A stretch of DNA of 64,000 bases from Hoyosella levis (lineage in GTDB: Bacteria > Actinomycetota > Actinomycetes > Mycobacteriales > Mycobacteriaceae): the NCBI RefSeq assembly GCF_026008515.1, contig NZ_BQYM01000010.1, positions 62,001-126,000 of the forward strand, read 5' to 3'. Under the pieces are notes generated by a model. The model saw only the letters and a list, made by a program, of their open reading frames with translations. It was not told where the DNA came from and made no database searches. Numbering within the stretch: position 1 is the stretch's first letter; every line of letters starts with the position of its first letter. A program made the translations under genes and the position numbers. Of this stretch, positions 30,137 through 43,466 are shown piece by piece.

Positions 30137-33100
30137 ATGAGCACCCCCACGGACCACATCACCCCCACCGTCGAGCCCGCTGACCTCGCCGACGATGCTG
30201 TCGCGCTGGTGCGCCACTGGCTTGTCGAGGGGTCCCGCTACCCGGTCGATCCCGCGGCACGCAAGCTCGCTGGGGTGCTCGATGATCCCAACGGCCTCGA
30301 GTTCACCGTCGGTTTCGTCGACGGCGTCATCCGCCCCGAGGACGTGCGCGTCGCCGCCCGCAACCTGCGGGCGGTCGCGCCGCGCGTGCCACGGTTCCTG
30401 CCGTGGCCCATGCGCCTCGCCGTCCGCCTCGGCGCGGTCCTCTCGATGATCGCCCCCCAGCTCGTGATCCCCATCGCCCGCCGCGTCCTGCGCCACATGG
30501 TCGGCCACCTCATCGTCGACGCTCGTGACGCCCGCCTCGGCAGCACCCTCTCCCGCATCAAGCAGGACAACACCCGCCTCAACGTCAACCTGCTCGGCGA
30601 GGCAATCCTCGGCGAGAAGGAGGCCGCCCGCCGCCTCGAGGGGCTCCATCGGCTCCTCGCGCGCGACGACATCGACTACCTCTCCATCAAGGTCTCCTCC
30701 ACCGTCGCCCCCCACAACCACTGGGCGTTCGACGAGACCGTCGCCCACGTCGTCGACACCCTCGAGCCGCTCTACCTCCAGGCCCGCGCGGACGGAAAGT
30801 TCCTCAACCTCGACATGGAGGAATACAAGGACCTCGACCTCACCATGGCGGTGTTCACCACCCTGCTCGACCGGCCGGGCCTCGCCGACCTCGAAGCAGG
30901 AATCGTGCTGCAGGCCTACCTTCCCGACGCGCTCGACGCGATGATGCGCCTGCAGGAATGGTCCGCTGCCCGCGTGGACCGCGGTGGCGCCCGTATCAAG
31001 GTGCGCGTGGTCAAGGGCGCCAACCTGCCCATGGAGACCATGGACGCCGACCTCCACGGCTGGCCGCTCGCCACCTGGCCCACCAAGCAGGACACCGACA
31101 CCTCCTACAAGGCCGTCCTCGACTACGCCCTGCGCCCCGAGCACGCCCGGAGAATCCGCATCGGCATCGCCGGGCACAACCTCTTCGACATCGCGCTGGC
31201 CTGGCTGCTGGCCAAGGCACGCGGAGTCACCGAGGCCGTCGATTTCGAGATGCTGCTCGGCATGGCCACCGGCCAGGCCGCCGCCGTGCGCAACGATGTC
31301 GGATCCCTGCTCCTCTACACCCCCGTCGTGCACCCCAAGGAGTTCGACGTCGCTATCTCCTACCTGATCCGCCGCCTCGAGGAAGGCGCATCGCGGGAGA
31401 ACTTCATGTCCGCCGTCTTCGAGCTCGATCACAACGAGGAGCTCTTCGAGCGGGAGAAGAACCGCTTCCTCGCCTCCCTCCATGCGCTCGACGACGCCCG
31501 CCACCATGGCGTGCCCGCGCCCAACCGCGACCAGGACCGGCGCCAGCCACCCGCGCACGGCCCCCGCGACCACTTCACCAACACCCCCGATACCGACCCC
31601 GACCTGCCCGGCAACCGCGCCTGGGGCCGTGCCATCGCCGAGCGCATGCGCACCTCCAGCCTCGGCACCCGCACCGCCGAGAACAACTGGATCACCGACG
31701 CCGCGAGCCTCGACAGGCTAGTCACCACTGCCGTGCACGCCGCCCCCGACTGGCAGCGCCTCGGTGCGGCCGGGCGCGCCGACATCCTCCACCGCGCCGG
31801 TGACGCTCTTGCCGCGCATCGGGCCGATCTGCTCGAGGTCATGGGATCCGAATGCGGCAAGACCCTCGACCAGGGCGATCCCGAGGTATCCGAGGCCATC
31901 GACTTCGCCCACTACTACGCGGAGCGTGGACGCGAGCTCGAGAACATTGACGGCGCCACCCACCAGCCGTGCAACCTCACCGTCGTCACCCCGCCCTGGA
32001 ACTTCCCCGTCGCCATCCCCACCGGCTCCACCATCAGCGCGCTCGCCGCCGGGTCGAGCGTCATCATCAAGCCGGCCCCGCAGGCTGCCCGCTGCGCCGC
32101 GGTCATGGTCGAAGCGCTCTGGGAGGCCGGAGTCCCCCGCGACGTGCTGCACTACGTCCAGCTCGACGAGCAGCAGCTCGGCGCCGAGCTGATCGCCCAC
32201 CCCGCCGTGGACCGGCTCATCCTCACCGGCGCCTACGACACCGCCGCGCTGTTCCGGTCGTTCCGCAACAACCTGCCGCTGCTCGCCGAGACATCCGGCA
32301 AGAACGCCATGATCGTCACCCCGTCGGCTGACTACGATCTCGCTGCCCGCGACGTCGCCCAGTCCGCGTTCGGGCACGCCGGGCAGAAATGCTCCGCGGC
32401 ATCGCTGCTCATCCTCGTTGGCAGCGTGGCCAGCTCCCCGCGCTTCCGCAACCAGCTCCTCGACGCCGTCCGCTCCCTCACTGTCGGCTATCCCTCCGAC
32501 CTGCGCACCCAGATGGGTCCCATCATCGAGCCCGCCACCGGCAAGCTCCGCGAGGGGCTCACCACCCTCGGCCCCGGCGAGACCTGGCTGCTCGAGCCCA
32601 CCCCCCTCGACGACACCGGCCAGCTATGGAGCCCCGGGGTACGCGAAGGCGTCAGGCCCGGCTCCGAGTACCACCTCACCGAGTACTTCGGCCCCATCCT
32701 CGGCATCATCACCGCCGAGACGCTCAACGACGCTATTCGCATCGCCAACGCTGTGGACTACGGCCTGACGTCCGGGCTCCACTCACTCGACCCGGACGAG
32801 ATCACCCACTGGACCAATCACATCCACGCCGGGAACCTCTACGTCAACCGCGGCATCACCGGAGCCATCGTGCAGCGCCAGCCCTTCGGCGGCTGGAAGA
32901 GATCCGCCATCGGCCCCGGCACCAAGGCTGGCGGCCCCAACTACCTCATCGGGCTGAGCAACTTCACCGACGCACCTGCCGATCAGCACCACGAGGCAGT
33001 CCTCGCGCGACCCGTGGCGCAGCTCCTCGACGCTCTCCGCGGCACCCTCAACGAGACCGACCACCAGTGGCTCAATGACGCGGCAGGCAGTGATGCGCGC

Positions 33101-33616
33101 GCCTGGGACACCGAGTTCGGCCACGCCCTCGACCGCACCGGCCTGATCGCCGAGCGCAACCTGCTGCGCTACCGGCCCACCGAGGTCACCATCCGCTACG
33201 AGGAACCGACCTCCGGCCACGGCATCGCCGAGCTCGCCCGCGTCACCGCCGCGGCCCTGCGCGCCAGCGCCCCCATCGTGATCAGCACCGCCGCGCCGCT
33301 GCCCCTCGAGATGCTCGACATCCTCGGTTCCCTTGGCATCCCCGTCCACACCGAGGACGAGCACGCCTGGGCCCGCCACGCGGCCAGCCTCGCCGAGCGC
33401 ACCGGTCCCGACGCCGCCGTGCGCATCCGGCTCATCGCCAGCAGCTCCTCCCCCACCTACGACGCCACCGGGGGCAAGCCCGACGTCGCGATCTACCACA
33501 ATCCCGTGGTCTCCGCCGGGCGCATCGAGCTGCTGCCGTTCCTCCGCGAGCAAGCCATCTCCATCACCGCGCACCGCTACGGCACCCCCAGCCGCCTCGC
33601 CGACGCAGTCGGATAG
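30137..33616 (+). CDS. putA: Bifunctional proline dehydrogenase / glutamate-semialdehyde dehydrogenase
   Basis: The 1159-residue protein has a FAD-dependent proline dehydrogenase barrel (about residues 100-430, with YLSIKVSSTVAPHNHWAF and RIKVRVVKGANLPME) fused to an aldehyde dehydrogenase domain (about residues 520-1000). In the latter Cys752 (GHAGQKCSAAS) and Glu718 (LLAETSGKNA) are the catalytic residues and PFGGWKRSAIGPGTKAGGP matches the P5C dehydrogenase end. The two domains turn proline into glutamate via pyrroline-5-carboxylate. There is no N-terminal DNA-binding domain, so it is not a self-repressor, in line with the neighbouring LysR gene. The length is that of the actinobacterial fused form. 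Confidence 0.94.
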   Translation: MSTPTDHITPTVEPADLADDAVALVRHWLVEGSRYPVDPAARKLAGVLDDPNGLEFTVGFVDGVIRPEDVRVAARNLRAVAPRVPRFLPWPMRLAVRLGAVLSMIAPQLVIPIARRVLRHMVGHLIVDARDARLGSTLSRIKQDNTRLNVNLLGEAILGEKEAARRLEGLHRLLARDDIDYLSIKVSSTVAPHNHWAFDETVAHVVDTLEPLYLQARADGKFLNLDMEEYKDLDLTMAVFTTLLDRPGLADLEAGIVLQAYLPDALDAMMRLQEWSAARVDRGGARIKVRVVKGANLPMETMDADLHGWPLATWPTKQDTDTSYKAVLDYALRPEHARRIRIGIAGHNLFDIALAWLLAKARGVTEAVDFEMLLGMATGQAAAVRNDVGSLLLYTPVVHPKEFDVAISYLIRRLEEGASRENFMSAVFELDHNEELFEREKNRFLASLHALDDARHHGVPAPNRDQDRRQPPAHGPRDHFTNTPDTDPDLPGNRAWGRAIAERMRTSSLGTRTAENNWITDAASLDRLVTTAVHAAPDWQRLGAAGRADILHRAGDALAAHRADLLEVMGSECGKTLDQGDPEVSEAIDFAHYYAERGRELENIDGATHQPCNLTVVTPPWNFPVAIPTGSTISALAAGSSVIIKPAPQAARCAAVMVEALWEAGVPRDVLHYVQLDEQQLGAELIAHPAVDRLILTGAYDTAALFRSFRNNLPLLAETSGKNAMIVTPSADYDLAARDVAQSAFGHAGQKCSAASLLILVGSVASSPRFRNQLLDAVRSLTVGYPSDLRTQMGPIIEPATGKLREGLTTLGPGETWLLEPTPLDDTGQLWSPGVREGVRPGSEYHLTEYFGPILGIITAETLNDAIRIANAVDYGLTSGLHSLDPDEITHWTNHIHAGNLYVNRGITGAIVQRQPFGGWKRSAIGPGTKAGGPNYLIGLSNFTDAPADQHHEAVLARPVAQLLDALRGTLNETDHQWLNDAAGSDARAWDTEFGHALDRTGLIAERNLLRYRPTEVTIRYEEPTSGHGIAELARVTAAALRASAPIVISTAAPLPLEMLDILGSLGIPVHTEDEHAWARHAASLAERTGPDAAVRIRLIASSSSPTYDATGGKPDVAIYHNPVVSAGRIELLPFLREQAISITAHRYGTPSRLADAVG

Positions 33617-34762: not shown

Positions 34763-35395
34763 TCACCCTGAGGTCTTGGGCTGGAGACCCAGCAGGCGGC
34801 CCAGGACGGTCCCGATCGTGTCGCCTGGAACGCTGCCCGGATCGGCGAGCTCTTCGATGGCGAGGCCGTTGTTCAGGGCCAGCATGGTGAGCATGAGAGT
34901 GCGCGCGGAGACGGCTGAGTTCGAGCCCCAGCTGCTGAGCGCTTCCTCGGCCAGCTCGGTCAGTTGCTGGTGGTAGTCGCGGCGCTTCTTGACCCATCGC
35001 TCGCGTAGCTCGGCGTCGCGGGCGGCACGAAGCCAGAACTCGGTGAACAGCAGCTGCCATTCGCGGCTCTGCTGCATCGCGGCGGTAAGGCGCTGACCGG
35101 CTTCGAGCGCGGTCGCCTCGTTGACGACGGTGAGGTCGGCCTGGCCGAGGATTTCGCGTACTGCGGCGATGCGGCCGGTCACCTGCTGGTCGAAGAGCTC
35201 GAAGAACAGGTCGTCCTTGCTCGCGAAGTTGGAGTAGAGCGCGCCGGTGGTGAACCCGGCGGTGGCCGCGACGTGTTGCATGCTGGCTCCGGCGAAGCCG
35301 CGCTCGGCGAACACCGTGGAGGCCGCTCGCAGGAGCCGGTCGCGCACCTCGGAGCGGGGCGTCCGGCGGTTGATGGGGGCTGGGGCTGGCTTCAT
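34763..35395 (-). CDS. TetR-family regulator
   Basis: A 210-residue TetR protein: basic N terminus, helix-turn-helix at about residues 16-62 (RDRLLRAASTVFAERGFAGA, HVAATAGFTTGALYSNF), then a helical effector domain. ATG 35395 overlaps the stop of the amidohydrolase gene by four bases (ATGA). It probably controls the operon from the palindrome upstream of the amidohydrolase. Confidence 0.88.
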   Translation of the reverse strand: MKPAPAPINRRTPRSEVRDRLLRAASTVFAERGFAGASMQHVAATAGFTTGALYSNFASKDDLFFELFDQQVTGRIAAVREILGQADLTVVNEATALEAGQRLTAAMQQSREWQLLFTEFWLRAARDAELRERWVKKRRDYHQQLTELAEEALSSWGSNSAVSARTLMLTMLALNNGLAIEELADPGSVPGDTIGTVLGRLLGLQPKTSG

Positions 35396-37164
35396 GATGG
35401 TCCTCCTGCGGCCGCCTGTGCCAGTCCTGCCCGCAGGAAGGAGCCGGAGCGTCGCGTCGTGCCGAACCCATCGGCAAAGGTTCCGTACTGGTAGGCGAGT
35501 TGACCGCCCACGATGGTCGCGGCCACGGCGCCATCGTTGCGGTTGACCATTCGAGCGACGCCCCCGAGCCCGTCGAGGACGGCTTCGGCGTAGTCGGCCG
35601 AGGCTTGCGAGAGCCCTGCGGGGTCGATGACGGCGATGTCGGCTCGGTCCCCCAGGCGGAGAGTGCCGGCGTCCAGGCCGTACCAGTCGCCGAGCTCGCC
35701 GGTGAGCCGGTGCACGGCGCGTTCGAGGCTGAGGAACTCGTGGCCTTTCTCGGCAGACTCCTTGACCCGCTTCAGCAGCCGAAGGCCGGCGTTGTAGAAC
35801 GCCATATTGCGCAGGTGGGCGCCGGAGTCCGCGAAACCCATCTGGATCTGGGGGTTGCTCGCGATCTTGTCGAGCACGTCGGGACGGTGGTTGGCGATCG
35901 TCGTGCGCCAGCGCAAGGCAGCGCCATGGGCGACCACTAGGTCAATGAAGGCGTCAGCGGGATGAATGCCCCGATCCTGGGCGACGCGGCCGAACGACTT
36001 GCCGATCACCTCGGCATCCGGGCAGCTGACGATGTCGGCGTCGAACAGGTCGCGGTGCCAGAGCTTCGGACCGAACCTGCGCTCGATGTCCTTGCGGAAC
36101 TGGCGGCGGTAGGCCTCGGAGTCCACGAGCTTGCCGCGCTCGACCACGTCGCGCACATTGAGAGCCGCGGCGCCGGAGCCGAACTCCTCGAAGACGACCA
36201 GGTCGATCCCATCGGCGTACACCTCGAACGGCACCGGCAGGTGCTGCCAGCGCAAGTCCGAGGCGAGAACCCGGTTCAGCAATGCCGTCGCCTTGGTCAC
36301 CAACCAGATCAGCTTCGGGTCTGCCTTGAGATCAGCTGCGGTGAGCATCGTGGTCTTCAACGGCGCCCTACCTCGACCAGCGCTCTGGGCGAAGAACTTG
36401 CCGACCTCGGCCTTGCGGGCAGCGTTGGGCGTGCACTGGTGCACACCCCCGCGGTCTCGGAGAACGCGGTTGAGCGCGCGGTACTCTCGCCAGGTCGCGT
36501 AGGTGGAGGGTAGTTGGCGCGCGGGGTAGCGCACGCCCTCCAGCTTCGAGAACGAACTTCTGATGGTCGACAGTCCCACGAACCCGGCGTCGAGCGCATC
36601 GGCCAGCATCGCGCGCATCCGGTCCAGTTCCGCGGGAGTCGGGCGCTCGCCTGGATCGGTGGCCCGGTCCAGGCCCATGACCGCCGCGCGGATGTCGGAG
36701 TGGCCGATGAACGCCGCGACGTTGGGGCCTAGCGGCCGAGACTCCAGTGCCTCCACGTAGCGATGTGGATTGGTCCAGGTCTGGTTCTCCTTGACCGCTG
36801 AGTGGACAGCGTCCCACGGCAGGGCCTCGACGCGCGAGAACAGGTCCGCGCAGTCGTCGGGGGAGGCATACACAGTGGAGAGGGAGCAGTTCCCGAAGAC
36901 CACGGTCGTGACGCCGTGCCGCACCGATTCGGAGAGCCCGGGGGCAACCAGCACCTCGGCGTCGTAGTGGGTGTGGACGTCGATCAGGCCCGGCATCACC
37001 CACAGTCCCTCAGCGTCGACGACCACCGCTCCCTCCGTCACCAAGGGCTCAGCGCTGATCGCCGCCACCCGTCCCGCGCGTACTCCCACGTCGCGGATCG
37101 CCGGTCGAGCACCGGTTCCGTCGAAGAAGCATCCGCCCCGGATCACCAGATCGAAACCATCCAT
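35392..37164 (-). CDS. Amidohydrolase, N-acyl-D-amino-acid deacylase-like
   Basis: A 590-residue metal-dependent amidohydrolase. LVIRGGCFFDGTGARPAIRD and the metal motif DVHTHYDAEV mark the N-terminal half; GHSDIRAAVMG, QMGFADSGAHLRNM (catalytic Asp) and the end DIAVIDPAG follow the D-aminoacylase pattern. Substrates in the family are N-acyl-D-amino acids, but several relatives act on other amides, so the substrate stays open. First gene of an amidohydrolase/TetR/hydrolase operon. Confidence 0.86.
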   Translation of the reverse strand: MDGFDLVIRGGCFFDGTGARPAIRDVGVRAGRVAAISAEPLVTEGAVVVDAEGLWVMPGLIDVHTHYDAEVLVAPGLSESVRHGVTTVVFGNCSLSTVYASPDDCADLFSRVEALPWDAVHSAVKENQTWTNPHRYVEALESRPLGPNVAAFIGHSDIRAAVMGLDRATDPGERPTPAELDRMRAMLADALDAGFVGLSTIRSSFSKLEGVRYPARQLPSTYATWREYRALNRVLRDRGGVHQCTPNAARKAEVGKFFAQSAGRGRAPLKTTMLTAADLKADPKLIWLVTKATALLNRVLASDLRWQHLPVPFEVYADGIDLVVFEEFGSGAAALNVRDVVERGKLVDSEAYRRQFRKDIERRFGPKLWHRDLFDADIVSCPDAEVIGKSFGRVAQDRGIHPADAFIDLVVAHGAALRWRTTIANHRPDVLDKIASNPQIQMGFADSGAHLRNMAFYNAGLRLLKRVKESAEKGHEFLSLERAVHRLTGELGDWYGLDAGTLRLGDRADIAVIDPAGLSQASADYAEAVLDGLGGVARMVNRNDGAVAATIVGGQLAYQYGTFADGFGTTRRSGSFLRAGLAQAAAGGPS

Positions 37165-37754: not shown

Positions 37755-37790
37755 CGAGCGCCTGTGCCCGAGCGCCTGTGCCCGAGCGCC
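37753..37790. repeat. 14-bp tandem repeat
   Basis: CCCGAGCGCCTGTG occurs at 37753 and 37767, with a third partial unit from 37781. It begins inside the end of repeat family 2 copy 3. Confidence 0.7.
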
Positions 37791-37818
37791 AGCACCCGCG
37801 CCCTGGTACAGGCATGAA

Positions 37819-37860
37819 AAGGAGCAGGAGGCACGACGCTCGCCGTGCCCCCTGCTCCTT
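37819..37860 (-). terminator. Strong stem-loop terminator after the ATP-grasp operon
   Basis: Arms AAGGAGCAGGAGGCACG (37819-37835) and CGTGCCCCCTGCTCCTT (37844-37860), one wobble position, loop 8, starting 14 bases after the stop of the papain-like gene. Confidence 0.8.
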
Positions 37861-37873
37861 GTGCCTCTAGCTA

Positions 37874-39868
37874 TCAGACGCGGTCGCCGGCCCAGCTGCC
37901 GATGGCCATCTCACGCACCGCGACGATCTCCTCCTCGGGCACGGGAAGCGTGCCCAGGGTTCCGGCGGGATCGTCGTGGAAGATGTAGAGCCGGGAGATC
38001 ATCTCGCGGAACGGCAGCGACGCCTCGCCGTATCGCTCGCCGTGGCCACTGGTGGAGACCACGACGCCGTTGCCCCAGTTCTGGCCGCTGTCGTTGTTGG
38101 GGTTGTAGAAGTAGACGCGCATCTCGCCGTCCTGGTCGAGGGCGACACGGATGATGGTGATGGCGTGCCAGCCCACGAACTTGGCGGTGGAATCGGTGAC
38201 GGCGAGGCCTGCCGGCTGGGGGTGGATGAGCGGCTGGTTGCCGTTGTACACCGGGTGGCAGGAAGCGTAGAAGGCGCGGATGTAGTCGTCGAAATCGCTC
38301 AGCTTCCCGCTCTCGATGTCCACGGCGATGCGGAACTCGCGGCCGACCCACCAGCCGTGGAACTCGGGGTTGATCCAGCGATGCGGATCCTCGCCCCGCT
38401 CGTTGCACATGCGCCCCATCTCGTTGTAGATGCGATCGAGGTGAGGCACGAGCACGGTGGATACGGGGTCAGTATCGAGGATCGCAGCCGTGGCGAGGCC
38501 GCGAGGCAGCTCGTCGGACTGGATCGGTGTTCCCTCGAAGTGCATGAGCACGGAGTCGAGCCGGGTGGCTTGATACAGCACGTTCAGCAGGTAGGCGGGG
38601 TCACTGTAGGACCACATGGACAGGGCCCGGGCCGACTGGCACGTGGGGTTGTTTCCCTGGCCGATGCCGAGCGGCTGGCCGAGCACGAGGATGGTCCCGG
38701 CGAGCAGGAACACCCGTGGTGGATGGGCGTCACCAAAGGTGGCCGTAATGGCAGCCGCAGCGCGCCCGCATGGTTGCAGCGCGATCTGGCGCCATAGCCC
38801 GGGCGCGATGGGTGGCGAGTAGAGGATGCCGCGCTCGAGCAGGTTGACGAGCCCGTAGAGGGCTTGCGCGGTCCCCGGATGGATCGCTTCCCGGATCAGC
38901 GCGTGCACGAGATCGGTGTAGCACTGCAGCACGTCCTGGCCGGTGATGCTCAGGCCGAGGGCGGCGGACAGGAGCGTGCCGTAGCCGTTGTCGAGCAGCC
39001 ACCGCACGAGGGCCACGTGGTAATCGGAGACGAGGCCAGTGTCGAGCATGGCTCGCGCCATGCCGGTGGCTTCCTGCTGCAGCCCGGCCTGGTCGATGGA
39101 TTCGAGGCGTTCCCGGTAGGTGTCGAGGCCGGGATCGTCGCGGCAGGCCTGGGTGGGGCCGAACAGGGCACTGATCAGCCGATCAGCTCCGAGCCTGGCC
39201 TCGCCCACTCCGCTACTGCTGCTGGCGAGGGTGATGGCGATCTGAGTGATCATCGACTTCACATGACCGACCTGCACGGGCCTCTGCGCGAGGATGCGCC
39301 AGATCTCGTCGATGAGGCTCGTGAGGATGTCATCGAACCCGATGTGCGCGACGAGGAACTGGAACAGATCGGTGACAGCCCCGTCGAGCGGGCGCGCCTG
39401 CACGCGCGCCGCCTCGGTCATGTCGCCGAAAAGCCGCTCGAGATTCATCGCGAGCACTTGGGTGAGGAAGTGCCGTGCCTGATCAGGCGGCAGGTCGGAA
39501 TGATGCGCATTGCCGGTGGCGACGGCGAGCAGCCGCAGCTCGCTGAGGCATTCGAGCGTCACCGTGCGCGCATACCCATCCCGGAAGGTCGAATTGACCA
39601 GGCCGGGCAGCAGGGCGCTGGGGTTGTTCCAGTCAGTCCCGGCGAACAGTCCGGCCTCGTCCAGCCGCGTGGCCCGCTCGTACAAGGCCTCGATGCCTCC
39701 AGCCCGAACGAGGATGCGCTTTGCGACGTCGAGCACGGCGGACTGCGATGATTCCTTGCCGAACCGTCCTGCCCGCTCCAGGCGCGCCGCCGCATCGTCA
39801 AGCTTGCCGCAGAGGCCTGGAAGGGCAGGATCGGTAGCGGTGGCGGCGCTCACCAGCGGCACCCCCAC
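37874..39868 (-). CDS. Unrecognised 664-residue protein with a papain-like Cys/His/Asn signature
   Basis: No family was recognised. The first 380 residues are mostly helical. A second part has the features of a papain-fold enzyme: Gln404 and Cys410 in LGIGQGNNPTCQSARAL, six residues apart as in papain (Gln19, Cys25); His568 in FVGWHAITIIRV; and Asn589 in VYFYNPNNDSGQNWG right after a strand, the usual order Cys, His, Asn. This suggests a cysteine peptidase, transglutaminase or amidase (inference). There is no signal peptide. GTG 39868 is used; GTG 39862 is possible. The gene follows the ATP-grasp gene by 12 bases, so a ligase/hydrolase or modification pair is likely. Confidence 0.75.
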   Translation of the reverse strand: MGVPLVSAATATDPALPGLCGKLDDAAARLERAGRFGKESSQSAVLDVAKRILVRAGGIEALYERATRLDEAGLFAGTDWNNPSALLPGLVNSTFRDGYARTVTLECLSELRLLAVATGNAHHSDLPPDQARHFLTQVLAMNLERLFGDMTEAARVQARPLDGAVTDLFQFLVAHIGFDDILTSLIDEIWRILAQRPVQVGHVKSMITQIAITLASSSSGVGEARLGADRLISALFGPTQACRDDPGLDTYRERLESIDQAGLQQEATGMARAMLDTGLVSDYHVALVRWLLDNGYGTLLSAALGLSITGQDVLQCYTDLVHALIREAIHPGTAQALYGLVNLLERGILYSPPIAPGLWRQIALQPCGRAAAAITATFGDAHPPRVFLLAGTILVLGQPLGIGQGNNPTCQSARALSMWSYSDPAYLLNVLYQATRLDSVLMHFEGTPIQSDELPRGLATAAILDTDPVSTVLVPHLDRIYNEMGRMCNERGEDPHRWINPEFHGWWVGREFRIAVDIESGKLSDFDDYIRAFYASCHPVYNGNQPLIHPQPAGLAVTDSTAKFVGWHAITIIRVALDQDGEMRVYFYNPNNDSGQNWGNGVVVSTSGHGERYGEASLPFREMISRLYIFHDDPAGTLGTLPVPEEEIVAVREMAIGSWAGDRV

Positions 39869-39880
39869 CGGCTTTGGCTG

Positions 39881-41104
39881 TCACACATAGAAATCGAGTT
39901 CCTCCTGCTTGGTGAGCAGCTCGCGCATCTCTTCCGGGTCCTCGCCGAAGAAGTACACCAGGCCCCAGTGCGTGCCGAACGCCGACCGCTTGGTCACCTT
40001 GTTCTCCCGCGGTGCCACGAGCTCGTGGTAATCAAAGTACTCGTGGTTCTCGGTCTCCTCGGGGATTTCCAGGTCGCTGACGACGCGACGCCGCGGATAC
40101 ACGCCGAAGCAGCCGGCATGGCCCTTGGCGTCCACCACAGGCTGCGGGAAGAACGCTTCGATCTCTTCCTCGGTGGTCTTGGGGTCGAACATCAGCACGA
40201 GCGCCTGGTAGGCGTTGAAGCCGTAGCTGCGCTCGAGCAGCTCGAAGACCTTGAAGCCCGGTGGCCGGTAGGCGACCTCGCCGAAGTACATCTTGCCGTC
40301 GCTGGTGACGAAGTACTCGGGGTGGATGAAGCCGAAATCGATGTCGAAGGTCTCGATGAGCTTCTCGATCTCCTCGATGATGCGGGGCCGCCACTTCTCG
40401 AGCTCGGGGCTAGCGGGAACGAAGACCGAGTAGCCCAGCTTCACGTACTCCGAGATGTTGAGGAAGCGGATCTTGCGGTCCTGGACCCACGCCTCCACCG
40501 CGAACTCCCAGCCATCGAGGTGGCTCTCGAGCAGGGCGGGGAACTCGTCGTCGTTGATGCCCGCGACGTCCTCGACGGTCCGGACCACGCGATGCCCCAG
40601 GCATCCAGCCTTGTCGAAGGCCTTGAGGTGGATGGGGTCGTTCGGGTCGCCATCGAGCTTGAGCAGGGTCTGGTTGACACGCTTGAGGAAGCGCACCACA
40701 TCGTCGCGGTCATGCGCCTCTTCGAAGATGCCCACCCGGATGCCACCGAGCTGAGCGCGCCGCTTCATCAGCGCCTTGTCGCGGAAGAGCATCGCCTGCC
40801 CGTGCAGCCGCGGGTTGTGCTGCAGGACGGCATTGATCGCGCCCGCCCACTCGACGGTCTCCTCGAAGAGCGGGATCGCCACGTCCACGCCCATGTCCTT
40901 GAGGGTCTGCGCGATCTCCATCGACCGGTCGTTCAAGCGCTCGAAGTTCCACGGCACGAACGGGATGTCGTTCTGCTTCGCATAGTCCTCGGCCCACTCC
41001 GGGGCGACTACAACGTAACGACGATCGAATCGATCCAGGGCGTCGATCGCATTCAGCGTCCACCCCAGAATCGCTACATAACCCTTGTTCGGGTCCTTCT
41101 CCAT
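39881..41104 (-). CDS. ATP-grasp domain ligase
   Basis: A 407-residue ATP-grasp protein of the carboxylate-amine ligase type. The nucleotide-binding strand has TLLKLDGDPNDPIHLKAFDK, and the metal/ATP end reads YFVTSDGKMYFGEVAYRPPG, where the usual ExNxR motif appears as EVAYR (Asn replaced by Ala). The N-terminal pre-ATP-grasp domain (GYVAILGWTLNAIDAL) and GVDVAIPLFEETVEWAGAIN fit D-Ala-ligase or carboxylase-like enzymes. It would join an acid to an amine with ATP cost; the substrate is unknown. ATG 41104 follows AGGAGTTATTTC. First gene of a two-gene operon. Confidence 0.87.
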   Translation of the reverse strand: MEKDPNKGYVAILGWTLNAIDALDRFDRRYVVVAPEWAEDYAKQNDIPFVPWNFERLNDRSMEIAQTLKDMGVDVAIPLFEETVEWAGAINAVLQHNPRLHGQAMLFRDKALMKRRAQLGGIRVGIFEEAHDRDDVVRFLKRVNQTLLKLDGDPNDPIHLKAFDKAGCLGHRVVRTVEDVAGINDDEFPALLESHLDGWEFAVEAWVQDRKIRFLNISEYVKLGYSVFVPASPELEKWRPRIIEEIEKLIETFDIDFGFIHPEYFVTSDGKMYFGEVAYRPPGFKVFELLERSYGFNAYQALVLMFDPKTTEEEIEAFFPQPVVDAKGHAGCFGVYPRRRVVSDLEIPEETENHEYFDYHELVAPRENKVTKRSAFGTHWGLVYFFGEDPEEMRELLTKQEELDFYV

Positions 41105-41309: not shown

Positions 41310-43466
41310 ATGGTGACCATGCCCGCCCCCAGCAATGCCGCCACCTCGACCGCTGCGACCCCCGATCTCCGCGAGCATGCCGAGCGGCTCCTGACTGACC
41401 TCGCTGGCCCCGCGGCCCGGTTGCGCGACGACCAGTGGACAGCCATCGAGGCGCTGGTCGTGCAGCGGCGACGGGTGCTCGTGGTGCAGCGCACCGGGTG
41501 GGGAAAGTCGGCGGTGTACTTCCTGGCGGCAAAGCTTCTGCGCGCCCAGGGGCTAGGCCCTTCCGTCATCGTTTCCCCCCTTCTCGCGCTCATGCGCAAC
41601 CAGGTCGAGGCGGCGGGGCGCGCGGGCGTGCGGGCAGCGACGATCAACTCCGGCAACATGACGGAGTGGTCGGCTATTCATGGCAGCATCGCCGCCGGCG
41701 AGATCGACGTGCTGCTCGTCAGCCCGGAGCGGCTGAACAATCCTGACTTCCGCGATCAGGTGCTCCCCCACCTGGCCGAGGACGCGGGGATGGTCGTCGT
41801 CGATGAGGCGCATTGCGTGTCGGACTGGGGGCATGATTTCCGGCCGGACTATCGCCGCATCCGCACCCTGGTGGCTGGCCTGCGGGGCGATGTGCCGGTC
41901 CTGGCCACCACCGCCACCGCCAATGACCGCGTGGTCGCCGATATCGCGGCACAGCTCGGCGTAGCAGGCAGTTCCAGCGCAGGCAGCAACGAGGATGGCG
42001 CGCTCGTGCTGCGGGGCAGCCTCGATCGCGAATCGCTGCACCTGTCGGTGGTCGACGTGGGTGCTGGCGCGGACCGGGCGGCCTGGCTCGCGCAGCATCT
42101 CGGTGAGCTGCCGGGCAGCGGGATCATCTATTCGTTGACGGTTTCCGCGGCGGAGGACCTCGCGACGGTGCTGGGCGAGCATGGCCATGAGGTCGCGGCC
42201 TACACCGGCCGCACTGATCCAGCGGAGCGCGAGGCCCTGGAAGCCGATCTGCTAGCGAACCGGGTGAAGGCGCTGGTGGCGACGTCCGCGCTGGGCATGG
42301 GCTTCGACAAGCCTGATCTTGGATTCGTGGTGCATGTCGGCTCGCCGTCCTCGCCGATCTCCTACTACCAGCAGGTGGGGCGCGCGGGCCGCGCGGCGCA
42401 GCGCGCGGAGGTGCTGCTGCTGCCGGGGGCCGAGGACAGGCGGATCTGGGAATACTTCGCGTCGGTGTCGTTCCCGCCCGAGGACACGGTGCGCGGTGTC
42501 CTGGCTGCCCTCGATGGCGAGCGTCCGCTGTCGACGGCAGCGCTGGAGCCGCGGGTGGACTTGTCGCGGTCGCGGCTGGAGATGGTGCTGAAGGTCCTGG
42601 ACGTGGATGGCGCGGCCCGGCGGGTGAAGGGCGGCTGGGTCGGCACGGGGCAACCGTGGAGCTATGACACCGAGCGATATGGGCGCCTCGCGGAGGCACG
42701 GCAGCGCGAGCAACAAGCAATGCTTGATTACCTCACCACCTCGCAATGCCGCATGGTGTTCCTGCGCCGGCAGCTCGATGATCCCGACCTGGGGGCCGCG
42801 CCGGAAGGCTGCGGACGATGCGACAACTGCGCCGGCGCCCGGTTCGCCGCGACGATCGACGACACGCTGCGCCGCGCCACCCGCGAGACACTCGATAGGC
42901 CCGGGGTCGTGCTCGCGCCGCGACGGCAATGGCCCACAGGCATGACCACGCTTGGGATCGACCTCTCGGGCAGGATCAAGGACGGTCCCGAGCCTGGCCG
43001 GGCGATAGGCCGCCTCACTGATCTCGGGTGGGGGCCACGCTTGCGCTCCGTTCTCGATGCGGGAGATGGCGAGGCACCCGAAGCGCTCGTGGCCGCGGCG
43101 ATCGAGGTGCTCAAGGCCTGGGAGTGGCTGGAGCGGCCAACTGCGGTCATCGCACTGGGCGCGGGCAGCCATCCTCGCCTGGCTGCAACGTTCGCATCGC
43201 GCCTGGCGAGCATCGGACGGCTCCGGGATCTCGGCGCCCTCCCGCTGCGCCCCGGAGCCTCTTTGCCAGTGGCACAGAACTCGGCGTTCCGCGTGGCCGC
43301 GCTGCATGACGCCTGGGACGTGTCCGGGGTGCCCGAGGTCGACGGCCCGGTCCTGCTTGTCGATGCGGTCTCCGATACGGGATGGACGCTCACTCTCGCG
43401 GCGCGCGCGCTCCGGAACGCTGGCGTCCCTGCCGTGCTGCCCCTGGCCATCGCGACCACGAGCTAG
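41310..43466 (+). CDS. RecQ-family helicase with a C-terminal phosphoribosyltransferase-like domain
   Basis: A 718-residue protein. The helicase core shows QRTGWGKSAVYFLAAKLL (motif I), SPLLALMRNQVEAA (Ia), VVDEAHCVSDWGHDFRPDYR (II, DEAH), LATTATAN (III), TSALGMGFDKPDLGFVVH (V) and YYQQVGRAGRA (VI). A Cys cluster (CRMVFLRRQL ... GCGRCDNC) is the RecQ zinc site. From about residue 550 it departs from ordinary RecQ and ends with VLLVDAVSDTGWTLTLAAR (from about residue 681), the PRPP-loop pattern of phosphoribosyltransferases, with Ala686 in place of the second acidic residue. It unwinds DNA in repair; the tail's role is unknown. It is divergent from the ATP-grasp operon. Confidence 0.9.
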   Translation: MVTMPAPSNAATSTAATPDLREHAERLLTDLAGPAARLRDDQWTAIEALVVQRRRVLVVQRTGWGKSAVYFLAAKLLRAQGLGPSVIVSPLLALMRNQVEAAGRAGVRAATINSGNMTEWSAIHGSIAAGEIDVLLVSPERLNNPDFRDQVLPHLAEDAGMVVVDEAHCVSDWGHDFRPDYRRIRTLVAGLRGDVPVLATTATANDRVVADIAAQLGVAGSSSAGSNEDGALVLRGSLDRESLHLSVVDVGAGADRAAWLAQHLGELPGSGIIYSLTVSAAEDLATVLGEHGHEVAAYTGRTDPAEREALEADLLANRVKALVATSALGMGFDKPDLGFVVHVGSPSSPISYYQQVGRAGRAAQRAEVLLLPGAEDRRIWEYFASVSFPPEDTVRGVLAALDGERPLSTAALEPRVDLSRSRLEMVLKVLDVDGAARRVKGGWVGTGQPWSYDTERYGRLAEARQREQQAMLDYLTTSQCRMVFLRRQLDDPDLGAAPEGCGRCDNCAGARFAATIDDTLRRATRETLDRPGVVLAPRRQWPTGMTTLGIDLSGRIKDGPEPGRAIGRLTDLGWGPRLRSVLDAGDGEAPEALVAAAIEVLKAWEWLERPTAVIALGAGSHPRLAATFASRLASIGRLRDLGALPLRPGASLPVAQNSAFRVAALHDAWDVSGVPEVDGPVLLVDAVSDTGWTLTLAARALRNAGVPAVLPLAIATTS

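Follow-up and report, generated by a model that had tools for sequence, protein, structure and literature searches.

A candidate make-and-cut amide system in Hoyosella levis: an ATP-grasp ligase-like protein and its predicted calpain-like partner

What might an ATP-grasp ligase-like protein accomplish together with a papain-like protein encoded directly beside it? The question is raised by two adjacent genes of Hoyosella levis, located on the minus strand of a 64,000-nucleotide stretch of contig NZ_BQYM01000010.1 (positions 62,001 to 126,000; assembly GCF_026008515.1), which we refer to as the window. The first gene of the pair (39881..41104, ATG start) encodes an ATP-grasp carboxylate-amine ligase-like protein of 407 amino acids (aa), and the second (37874..39868, GTG start) a 664-aa papain-like protein, hereafter the partner; in the list of open reading frames (ORFs) they are separated by a 12-base spacer. 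An initial annotation made from the DNA letters had described this arrangement and singled out Gln404, Cys410, His568 and Asn589 of the partner, and both the positions of the genes and the four residues were recovered in the ORFs. Here we report that the two genes form a unit and, by analogy with characterized enzyme systems, we propose that their products may make an amide and then cut it, or transfer its acyl group, a reading to which we assign a probability of roughly 0.4.

Co-occurrence of the two genes

At least 556 loci encode the partner in one collection of species genomes, and the best 80, ranked by similarity to the window, were retained for analysis. In 73 of these 80 loci the partner is preceded on its own strand by an ATP-grasp gene, whose ORF is 380 aa or longer in 69, cut by runs of N or contig ends in three (L015, L026 and L029) and a decayed remnant in one (L079). 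Four further loci have a divergently oriented ATP-grasp gene and three have none adjacent, one of the latter at a contig edge. A full-length ATP-grasp gene is present elsewhere in the genome for L016, L043, L079 (the remnant) and L024 (the contig edge), and in two of these four genomes the distant gene adjoins a second, paralogous partner (L110 and L111). In Vreelandella arcis the decayed adjacent gene occupies L079:7565-7947, and a copy belonging to a second ATP-grasp type (type II) survives elsewhere in the genome; a Desulfobulbaceae genome has its partner ORF in two pieces (L020:7830-9914).

The association also holds across whole genomes. Of 61 relatives of the window's genome, 7 contain the partner, and the same 7 contain the ATP-grasp orthologue, the matches of 20-30 bits in three further genomes being other ATP-grasps. 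In the phylum of G451, a genome selected because the pair is present, both genes are found in the same 11 of 398 genomes (E-values up to 0.01 for the partner and up to 1e-40 for the ATP-grasp). Within the window's own phylum, the partner was found in 4 of 396 genomes, that of the window included; the genome searches use a loose first look, and the two phylum-wide searches for the partner scored at most three candidates per genome. The coupling of the two genes suggested by the initial annotation is thus seen in the sampled genomes. A correlation between the distances of the two proteins (r 0.89, 93 pairs) was not used, since common descent gives the same result.

Clustering of neighboring ORFs of at least 100 aa across 81 loci (the best 80 and L008) revealed no third gene kept with the pair throughout. 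A third obligate gene was accordingly rejected: gene order is conserved within the Halomonadaceae, and merely five neighbor clusters span three or more lineages. Coding similarity across lineages within 900 bases of the pair involves 16 lineage pairs, the strongest cases being a histone deacetylase (HDAC) gene and another ordinary gene, and one upstream match in these flanks (L073 with L080) crosses lineages.

Conserved residues and predicted folds

The residues proposed for catalysis in the partner are Gln404 (38657..38659), the putative oxyanion-hole residue, and Cys410 (38639..38641), the putative nucleophile, which delimit the stretch QGNNPTC, followed by His568 (38165..38167) within GWHAIT and Asn589 (38102..38104) within YNPNND, all on the minus strand. 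Each of the four is identical in 88 of 88 aligned homologues, from which L001, L089, L009, L011 and L090 had been removed as duplicates, and remains invariant (106/106) after the addition of 18 copies from other genomes, including two paralogous clades. With this invariance, in a set of homologues reaching down to about 50% identity, the Gln-Cys-His-Asn pattern goes beyond chance. The C-terminal domain is the more conserved half of the protein, 112 of its 299 columns being at least 95% identical, whereas the N-terminal region has 71 such columns out of 350.

An AlphaFold2 model of the full-length partner, built from 58 homologues, reached a predicted local distance difference test (pLDDT) score of 86.5 and a predicted template modeling (pTM) score of 0.78. 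It comprises an all-helical N-terminal region (residues ~16-397), followed by a putative papain-like catalytic domain (residues 366-664; 37874..38773, minus strand), which was also modeled separately from 60 rows (pLDDT 88.2, pTM 0.86). The full model puts Gln404 in a loop of low confidence, Cys410 at the N-terminus of helix 410-422, His568 within strand 564-577 and Asn589 immediately past strand 583-588. The models display the topology of the papain superfamily, with Cys at the N-terminus of the core helix and His and Asn on or after later strands.

A Foldseek search with the full-length model returned nothing below 0.001 because helical-repeat proteins filled the list, a problem resolved by the domain model, for which the top nine PDB matches are all calpain structures (best 3bow, E 6.3e-4, probability 0.99). 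VIA-align superposed the domain model on calpain-3 with Z 8.8 and a root-mean-square deviation of 4.1-4.5 over 209-212 residues, followed by staphopains (Z 6.9-7.0) and by cathepsin B and Der p 1 (Z 5.4-5.6), and the 50 rows listed are mainly calpains, staphopains, cathepsins and other papain-like proteases. A Z of about 8-9 is modest by the tool's own note, yet the match list is coherent and spans most of the domain. If the starts of the 1cv8, 2as8 and 1ito alignments are taken as ungapped, Cys410 would presumably fall on the catalytic Cys of staphopain, Der p 1 and cathepsin B. One match below 0.001 in a viral structure library, to a phage peptidoglycan-binding-like protein (TM-score 0.17-0.24), was not used.

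Judging from these models, we predict with good confidence that the C-terminal half of the partner adopts a papain-like fold nearest to that of calpain. The initial annotation had proposed a papain-like enzyme and pointed to residue conservation and predicted structure as ways of checking it; the invariance of the four residues and the papain topology of the predicted model both agree with that proposal, the residues lying on the right elements of a confident model whose best structural neighbors are papain-like proteases. As in calpain (family C2), the predicted Cys starts the core helix, with His and Asn on later strands, and the partner signatures QGxxxxC, HA and NP resemble what we take to be the corresponding letters of calpain. 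The partner differs from calpain in lacking a Peptidase_C2 sequence match, in a helical N-terminal region unmatched as a whole and in having an ATP-grasp companion.

Sequence searches, like the initial annotation, assign the partner to no named family. No usable match to the 664-aa protein was found in Pfam or NCBIfam (E up to 1), and no family in PADLOC or PHROGs (E up to 0.1). The C-terminal domains of 60 family members, scanned singly against Pfam, gave stray matches alone (best E 0.028), and neither the window protein nor these 60 members matched, at E up to 1, the profiles of Peptidase_C2 (PF00648), BtrH_N (PF14399), DUF3335 (PF11814), phytochelatin synthase (PF05023) or CHAP (PF05257). 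A profile of the partner found no match among PDB sequences at E up to 10, and the sole phmmer match, a PAS one, was judged to be due to chance. In a crude hydropathy count neither protein of the pair has a hydrophobic start resembling a signal peptide, so both probably work in the cytoplasm.

The ATP-grasp protein of the window scores 17 bits against the ATP-grasp_4 family of Pfam, which has a cut-off of 27, and a type II copy scores 26 against the same cut-off. A 40-row profile of the family retrieved 4dim and the L-amino acid ligases 4wd3 and 3vot from the PDB at E 0.001-0.003. K149, K161, E263, E276, A278 and R280 are each identical in 80 of 80 aligned sequences (five short ORFs, duplicates and loci without an adjacent ATP-grasp were excluded); E263, E276 and R280 align with 3vot, and E276 and R280 with 4dim and 4wd3. 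We infer that K149 and K161 are the lysines of the ATP site. The initial annotation had remarked on the motif EVAYR (residues 276-280; 40265..40279, minus strand), which has Ala where the Asn of ExNxR is usual. That the motif is special is not supported: the Ala is family-wide here, and the aligned stretch reads EIAMR in 4wd3 and EVGAR in 3vot. Because these solved L-amino acid ligases also lack the Asn, its absence is no mark of novelty, and EVAYR was likewise rejected as a sign of a dead or unusual ligase.

Clades, spread and gene neighborhoods

Some genomes carry two or three partner copies, and further partner clades, B (five copies) and C (three copies), each with support 1.0, were recognized among the copies read. 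Genomes with extra partner copies hold the type II ATP-grasps, which are 89-94% identical among themselves and ~71-75% identical to the window's protein. At least three clades of the partner and two types of the ATP-grasp can be told apart. Copy numbers do not run in parallel: one partner accompanies two ATP-grasps in G504 and G768, two partners one ATP-grasp in G451, and three partners two ATP-grasps in G524 and G628. The search of G451's phylum scored no more than three partner candidates per genome, and its copy counts are lower bounds.

Among named genome records, Lolliginicoccus suaedae (L009) matches the partner best (93% over the 664 aa). The partner tree places the Lolliginicoccus/Hoyosella clade inside a 21-member clade (support 0.989) whose other members are Desulfobacterota, gammaproteobacteria and one alphaproteobacterium, and it joins Nocardia veterana, along with two copies belonging to the window's own family, to the Halomonas/Marinobacter part (0.95). 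Since actinobacterial copies thus stand in two separate parts of the tree, at least two transfers into the window's phylum are suggested. By name, the best 80 loci come mostly from marine or salt-loving bacteria, a tendency for which no statistics are given because similarity to the window determined the ranking. Viral contigs contained no confirmed relative of the partner, and phage records no confirmed relative of the ATP-grasp; the one partner match on plasmids lies within a 1.8-Mb Halomonas replicon. With no viral or phage relatives confirmed and no PADLOC family for either protein at E up to 0.1, a phage or known-defense origin was set aside.

Several neighboring genes offer clues to a substrate. 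Genes for HDAC-fold deacetylases (PF00850) form one of the five clusters shared by three or more lineages, present in 8 of the 81 loci, in four lineages and more than one arrangement, and lie 0 to 0.6 kb from the pair in seven of the eight; the count leaves out two weaker, more distant matches (L057 and L064), and the L012 gene matches PF00850 at E 1e-92. Such a gene also adjoins the partner in L123, and L155 has one ~3 kb away from its type II ATP-grasp. Aldehyde dehydrogenases make up another of the five clusters, in four loci and one to four genes from the pair. L035 holds an aminobutyraldehyde dehydrogenase above its NCBIfam cut-off and a PotC-like permease, L036 a class III aminotransferase and an enzyme resembling succinate-semialdehyde dehydrogenase (SSADH), and a type C partner begins 3 bases past a PotI-like permease that is itself preceded, at 2 kb, by a PotF-like gene. 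All of these amine-linked neighbors, together with the Amidoligase_2 and C26 genes of L030 described below, can concern amines, polyamines or gamma-glutamyl amides and, in the minority of loci where they occur, they hint at an amine or polyamine conjugate.

Other neighborhoods contain further enzymes. In Salinivibrio sharmensis, overlapping Amidoligase_2 (PF12224) and Peptidase_C26 genes (L030:10112-11793) stand directly downstream of the pair; they are a second build-and-cut couple at the same place, and the C26 gene resembles gamma-glutamyl-GABA (gamma-aminobutyrate) hydrolase/PuuD. In G524 (L148:1663-13841) and G628 (L150:4265-14934), a type B partner lies amid four further enzyme-like genes, encoding a KAS III-like protein (636 aa), a GCS2-like carboxylate-amine ligase, an AstE/AspA-like hydrolase and a metallo-beta-lactamase-fold hydrolase. 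A KAS III-like gene likewise adjoins the type B partner of L152 and is not found in L110 or L111, giving three of five type B loci. The GCS2-like ligase was rejected as a constant companion, 11 of 17 pair-bearing genomes tested having no match; matches occur in G524, G628 and G592, together with a 49% relative in G451, a 35% one in the window's genome and 32-34% pieces in G454. In Pararhizobium haloflavum, a protein near the pair (L023:10428-11357) resembles ectoine hydroxylase by eye.

In the window itself, an unbroken 19-pair hairpin (37819..37860, minus strand) directly 3' of the partner's stop codon is a possible transcription terminator of the two-gene unit. The minus-strand fold of 37790-37875, which covers it, has an energy of -51.7 kcal/mol (z -5.0). 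The position of the hairpin would fit the 3' end of a transcript covering both genes, although a consensus terminator scanner made no call there. Upstream of the pair and in opposite orientation lies a RecQ-like helicase gene (41310-43466, plus strand), whose product scores below the curated cut-offs for RecQ and shows, C-terminally, a weak phosphoribosyltransferase-like match. The next recognized gene downstream, an amidohydrolase (35392-37164), is 709 bases from the partner, and a single PutA-like ORF of 1159 aa with proline dehydrogenase and aldehyde dehydrogenase domains occupies 30137-33616 on the plus strand.

Possible activities of the pair

For the make-and-cut reading, we infer both activities, the order of the steps and the kind of substrate. 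The ATP-grasp protein would activate a carboxylate as an acyl phosphate and join it to an amine at the cost of ATP. Cys410 of the partner, assisted by His568, Asn589 and Gln404, would then attack the amide of the ligase product or of a related compound, and the resulting thioester would be hydrolyzed or its acyl group handed to another acceptor. Both enzymes would operate in the cytoplasm, and small substrates would be the likeliest, an amino-acid-type acid together with a small amine that might be a polyamine.

The reading draws on glutathionylspermidine/trypanothione synthetase-amidase, which two papers (PMC11124245, PMC10318531) describe as an ATP-grasp C-N ligase fused to a CHAP papain-like amidase, concerned with a polyamine conjugate. 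It shares with the pair the combination of an ATP-grasp ligase and a papain-like cysteine amidase, and with it the make-and-cut activity that we predict. There, however, the two activities reside in one fused protein, its amidase being CHAP-type (papain cluster II) and its synthetase from a family of its own, whereas the pair consists of two separate proteins and the predicted fold of the partner is nearest calpain (cluster I). Neither the glutathionylspermidine synthetase nor the CHAP family of Pfam is among the matches of the pair proteins or of 60 partner relatives at E up to 1. The gamma-glutamylputrescine (Puu) pathway of polyamine catabolism likewise employs a ligase that makes an amide and a cysteine hydrolase, PuuD (C26), that cuts it. 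PuuA belongs to the glutamine synthetase family and PuuD has the glutamine amidotransferase (GATase) fold, families unrelated to those of the pair; a likeness to the pathway is seen in Salinivibrio L030, where Amidoligase_2 and C26/PuuD-like genes follow the pair. The L-amino acid ligases (BL00235, PDB 3vot; PDB 4wd3) are among the nearest ATP-grasps of solved structure and share the missing Asn of ExNxR, but they are very distant (E 0.0025-0.02), and we know of no papain-like partner for them. A survey by Iyer et al. in 2009 reportedly covers amidoligases encoded with papain-like or transglutaminase-like peptidases. In PMC10318531, DUF3335, a papain-like family often fused to GNAT, is cited alongside that survey; the partner has no match to this family.

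Several observations weigh against a make-and-cut unit acting on small amines. At 8.8 the structural Z is modest, and likeness of fold by itself shows no function; the ATP-grasp protein is far from every characterized enzyme (best E ~0.001). The amine-linked neighbors were picked after looking and occur in a minority of loci, and among the searched neighbors in the window no amine-linked gene was recognized. The HDAC cluster has no member in 37 Halomonadaceae loci (a hand-made list), among which L057 alone shows an aldehyde dehydrogenase, four genes away. Relatives of the HDAC gene are common, all 14 partner-bearing genomes tested having at least one (1 to 7); a close relative (66-77% identity) is present in 12 of the 14, near a pair gene in merely two. 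The PotF, PotI, PotC and SSADH matches fall below the curated NCBIfam cut-offs. Type II ATP-grasps also occur without a nearby partner (L112, L154 and L155), so that types of ATP-grasp and partner are only loosely matched.

Two alternatives stand out among the rivals: a protein modification cycle and a glutamine-dependent amidotransferase. In the former, the ATP-grasp protein would attach an amino acid or a peptide to some protein, and the partner would remove that group, as tubulin tyrosine ligase and vasohibin do for tubulin. The co-occurrence of the two enzymes with no third gene conserved throughout is what such a writer and eraser would show, and so is the calpain-type predicted fold of the partner, folds of this type usually acting on proteins. 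We nevertheless consider this explanation unlikely: the pair is found in distant phyla, and a protein target would be needed in all of its hosts; in the partner tree, actinobacterial sequences form two clades that sit apart from each other among those of proteobacteria and Desulfobacterota; and clustering of the neighbors of the 81 loci disclosed no nearby target gene conserved throughout.

In the amidotransferase arrangement, of which carbamoyl-phosphate synthetase is an analogue, the two proteins would be subunits of one synthetase, the partner hydrolyzing glutamine or another amide and feeding ammonia or an acyl group to the ATP-grasp. Exceptionless co-occurrence in the samples and close spacing are as expected for subunits of one enzyme, but some genomes hold a partner copy with no ATP-grasp beside it, and the unequal copy numbers in G504, G768, G524, G628 and G451 also speak against it, leaving this explanation quite unlikely.

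Acyl transfer by way of a carrier appears very unlikely. Here the ATP-grasp would load an amino acid on an acyl carrier protein, the role of BtrJ in butirosin synthesis, and the papain-like enzyme would pass it on, as BtrH does. A precedent appears in PMC10318531, where BtrH is a papain-like acyltransferase of the same fold cluster as papain and calpain, and the KAS III-like gene near the type B partner in three of the five type B loci read is compatible with it; against it stand the lack of a BtrH_N match in the window protein or 60 family members and the lack of a recurring short gene in the 900-base flanks, to which this negative applies, since most carriers fall below the 100-aa limit of the neighbor lists. 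Maturation of a ribosomally synthesized and post-translationally modified peptide, with the ATP-grasp crosslinking a precursor and the papain-like enzyme removing its leader, has a precedent in graspetide clusters that combine ATP-grasps with C39 peptidases (PMC8939145) and is highly improbable, nothing within 900 bases recurring across many lineages, where short or variable precursors could escape, and no export gene being kept with the pair throughout.

Returning to a unit that makes and then cuts or transfers an amide, a more specific form of it is possible, if rather unlikely: an unrecognized amine-conjugation system spreading horizontally among mostly marine or salt-loving bacteria, in which the ATP-grasp would conjugate a polyamine or similar amine to an acid and the calpain-like amidase would release or re-route the conjugate. 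It is equally tentative that the amidase, in at least three clades of which two would go with one ATP-grasp type, represents a second, separately evolved chemistry of the glutathionylspermidine type. The general kind of system, an amidoligase with a cysteine peptidase or amidase, is already known; the pairing of these two families, the predicted calpain-like partner and the partner clades go unnamed in the libraries and literature listings searched. No paper on the pair is among the literature matches listed, and a prior mention in Iyer et al. 2009 is possible.

The partner is encoded at 556 or more loci, yet none of the four protein libraries searched (Pfam, NCBIfam, PADLOC and PHROGs) names a family for it. 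If the proposed reading is true, the pair would represent an unexplored metabolic pathway in many cultured marine bacteria, including Halomonas, Marinobacter, Alcanivorax and others, and the partner would belong to a bacterial, calpain-like branch of the papain superfamily that performs amide chemistry on small molecules and not the digestion of proteins.

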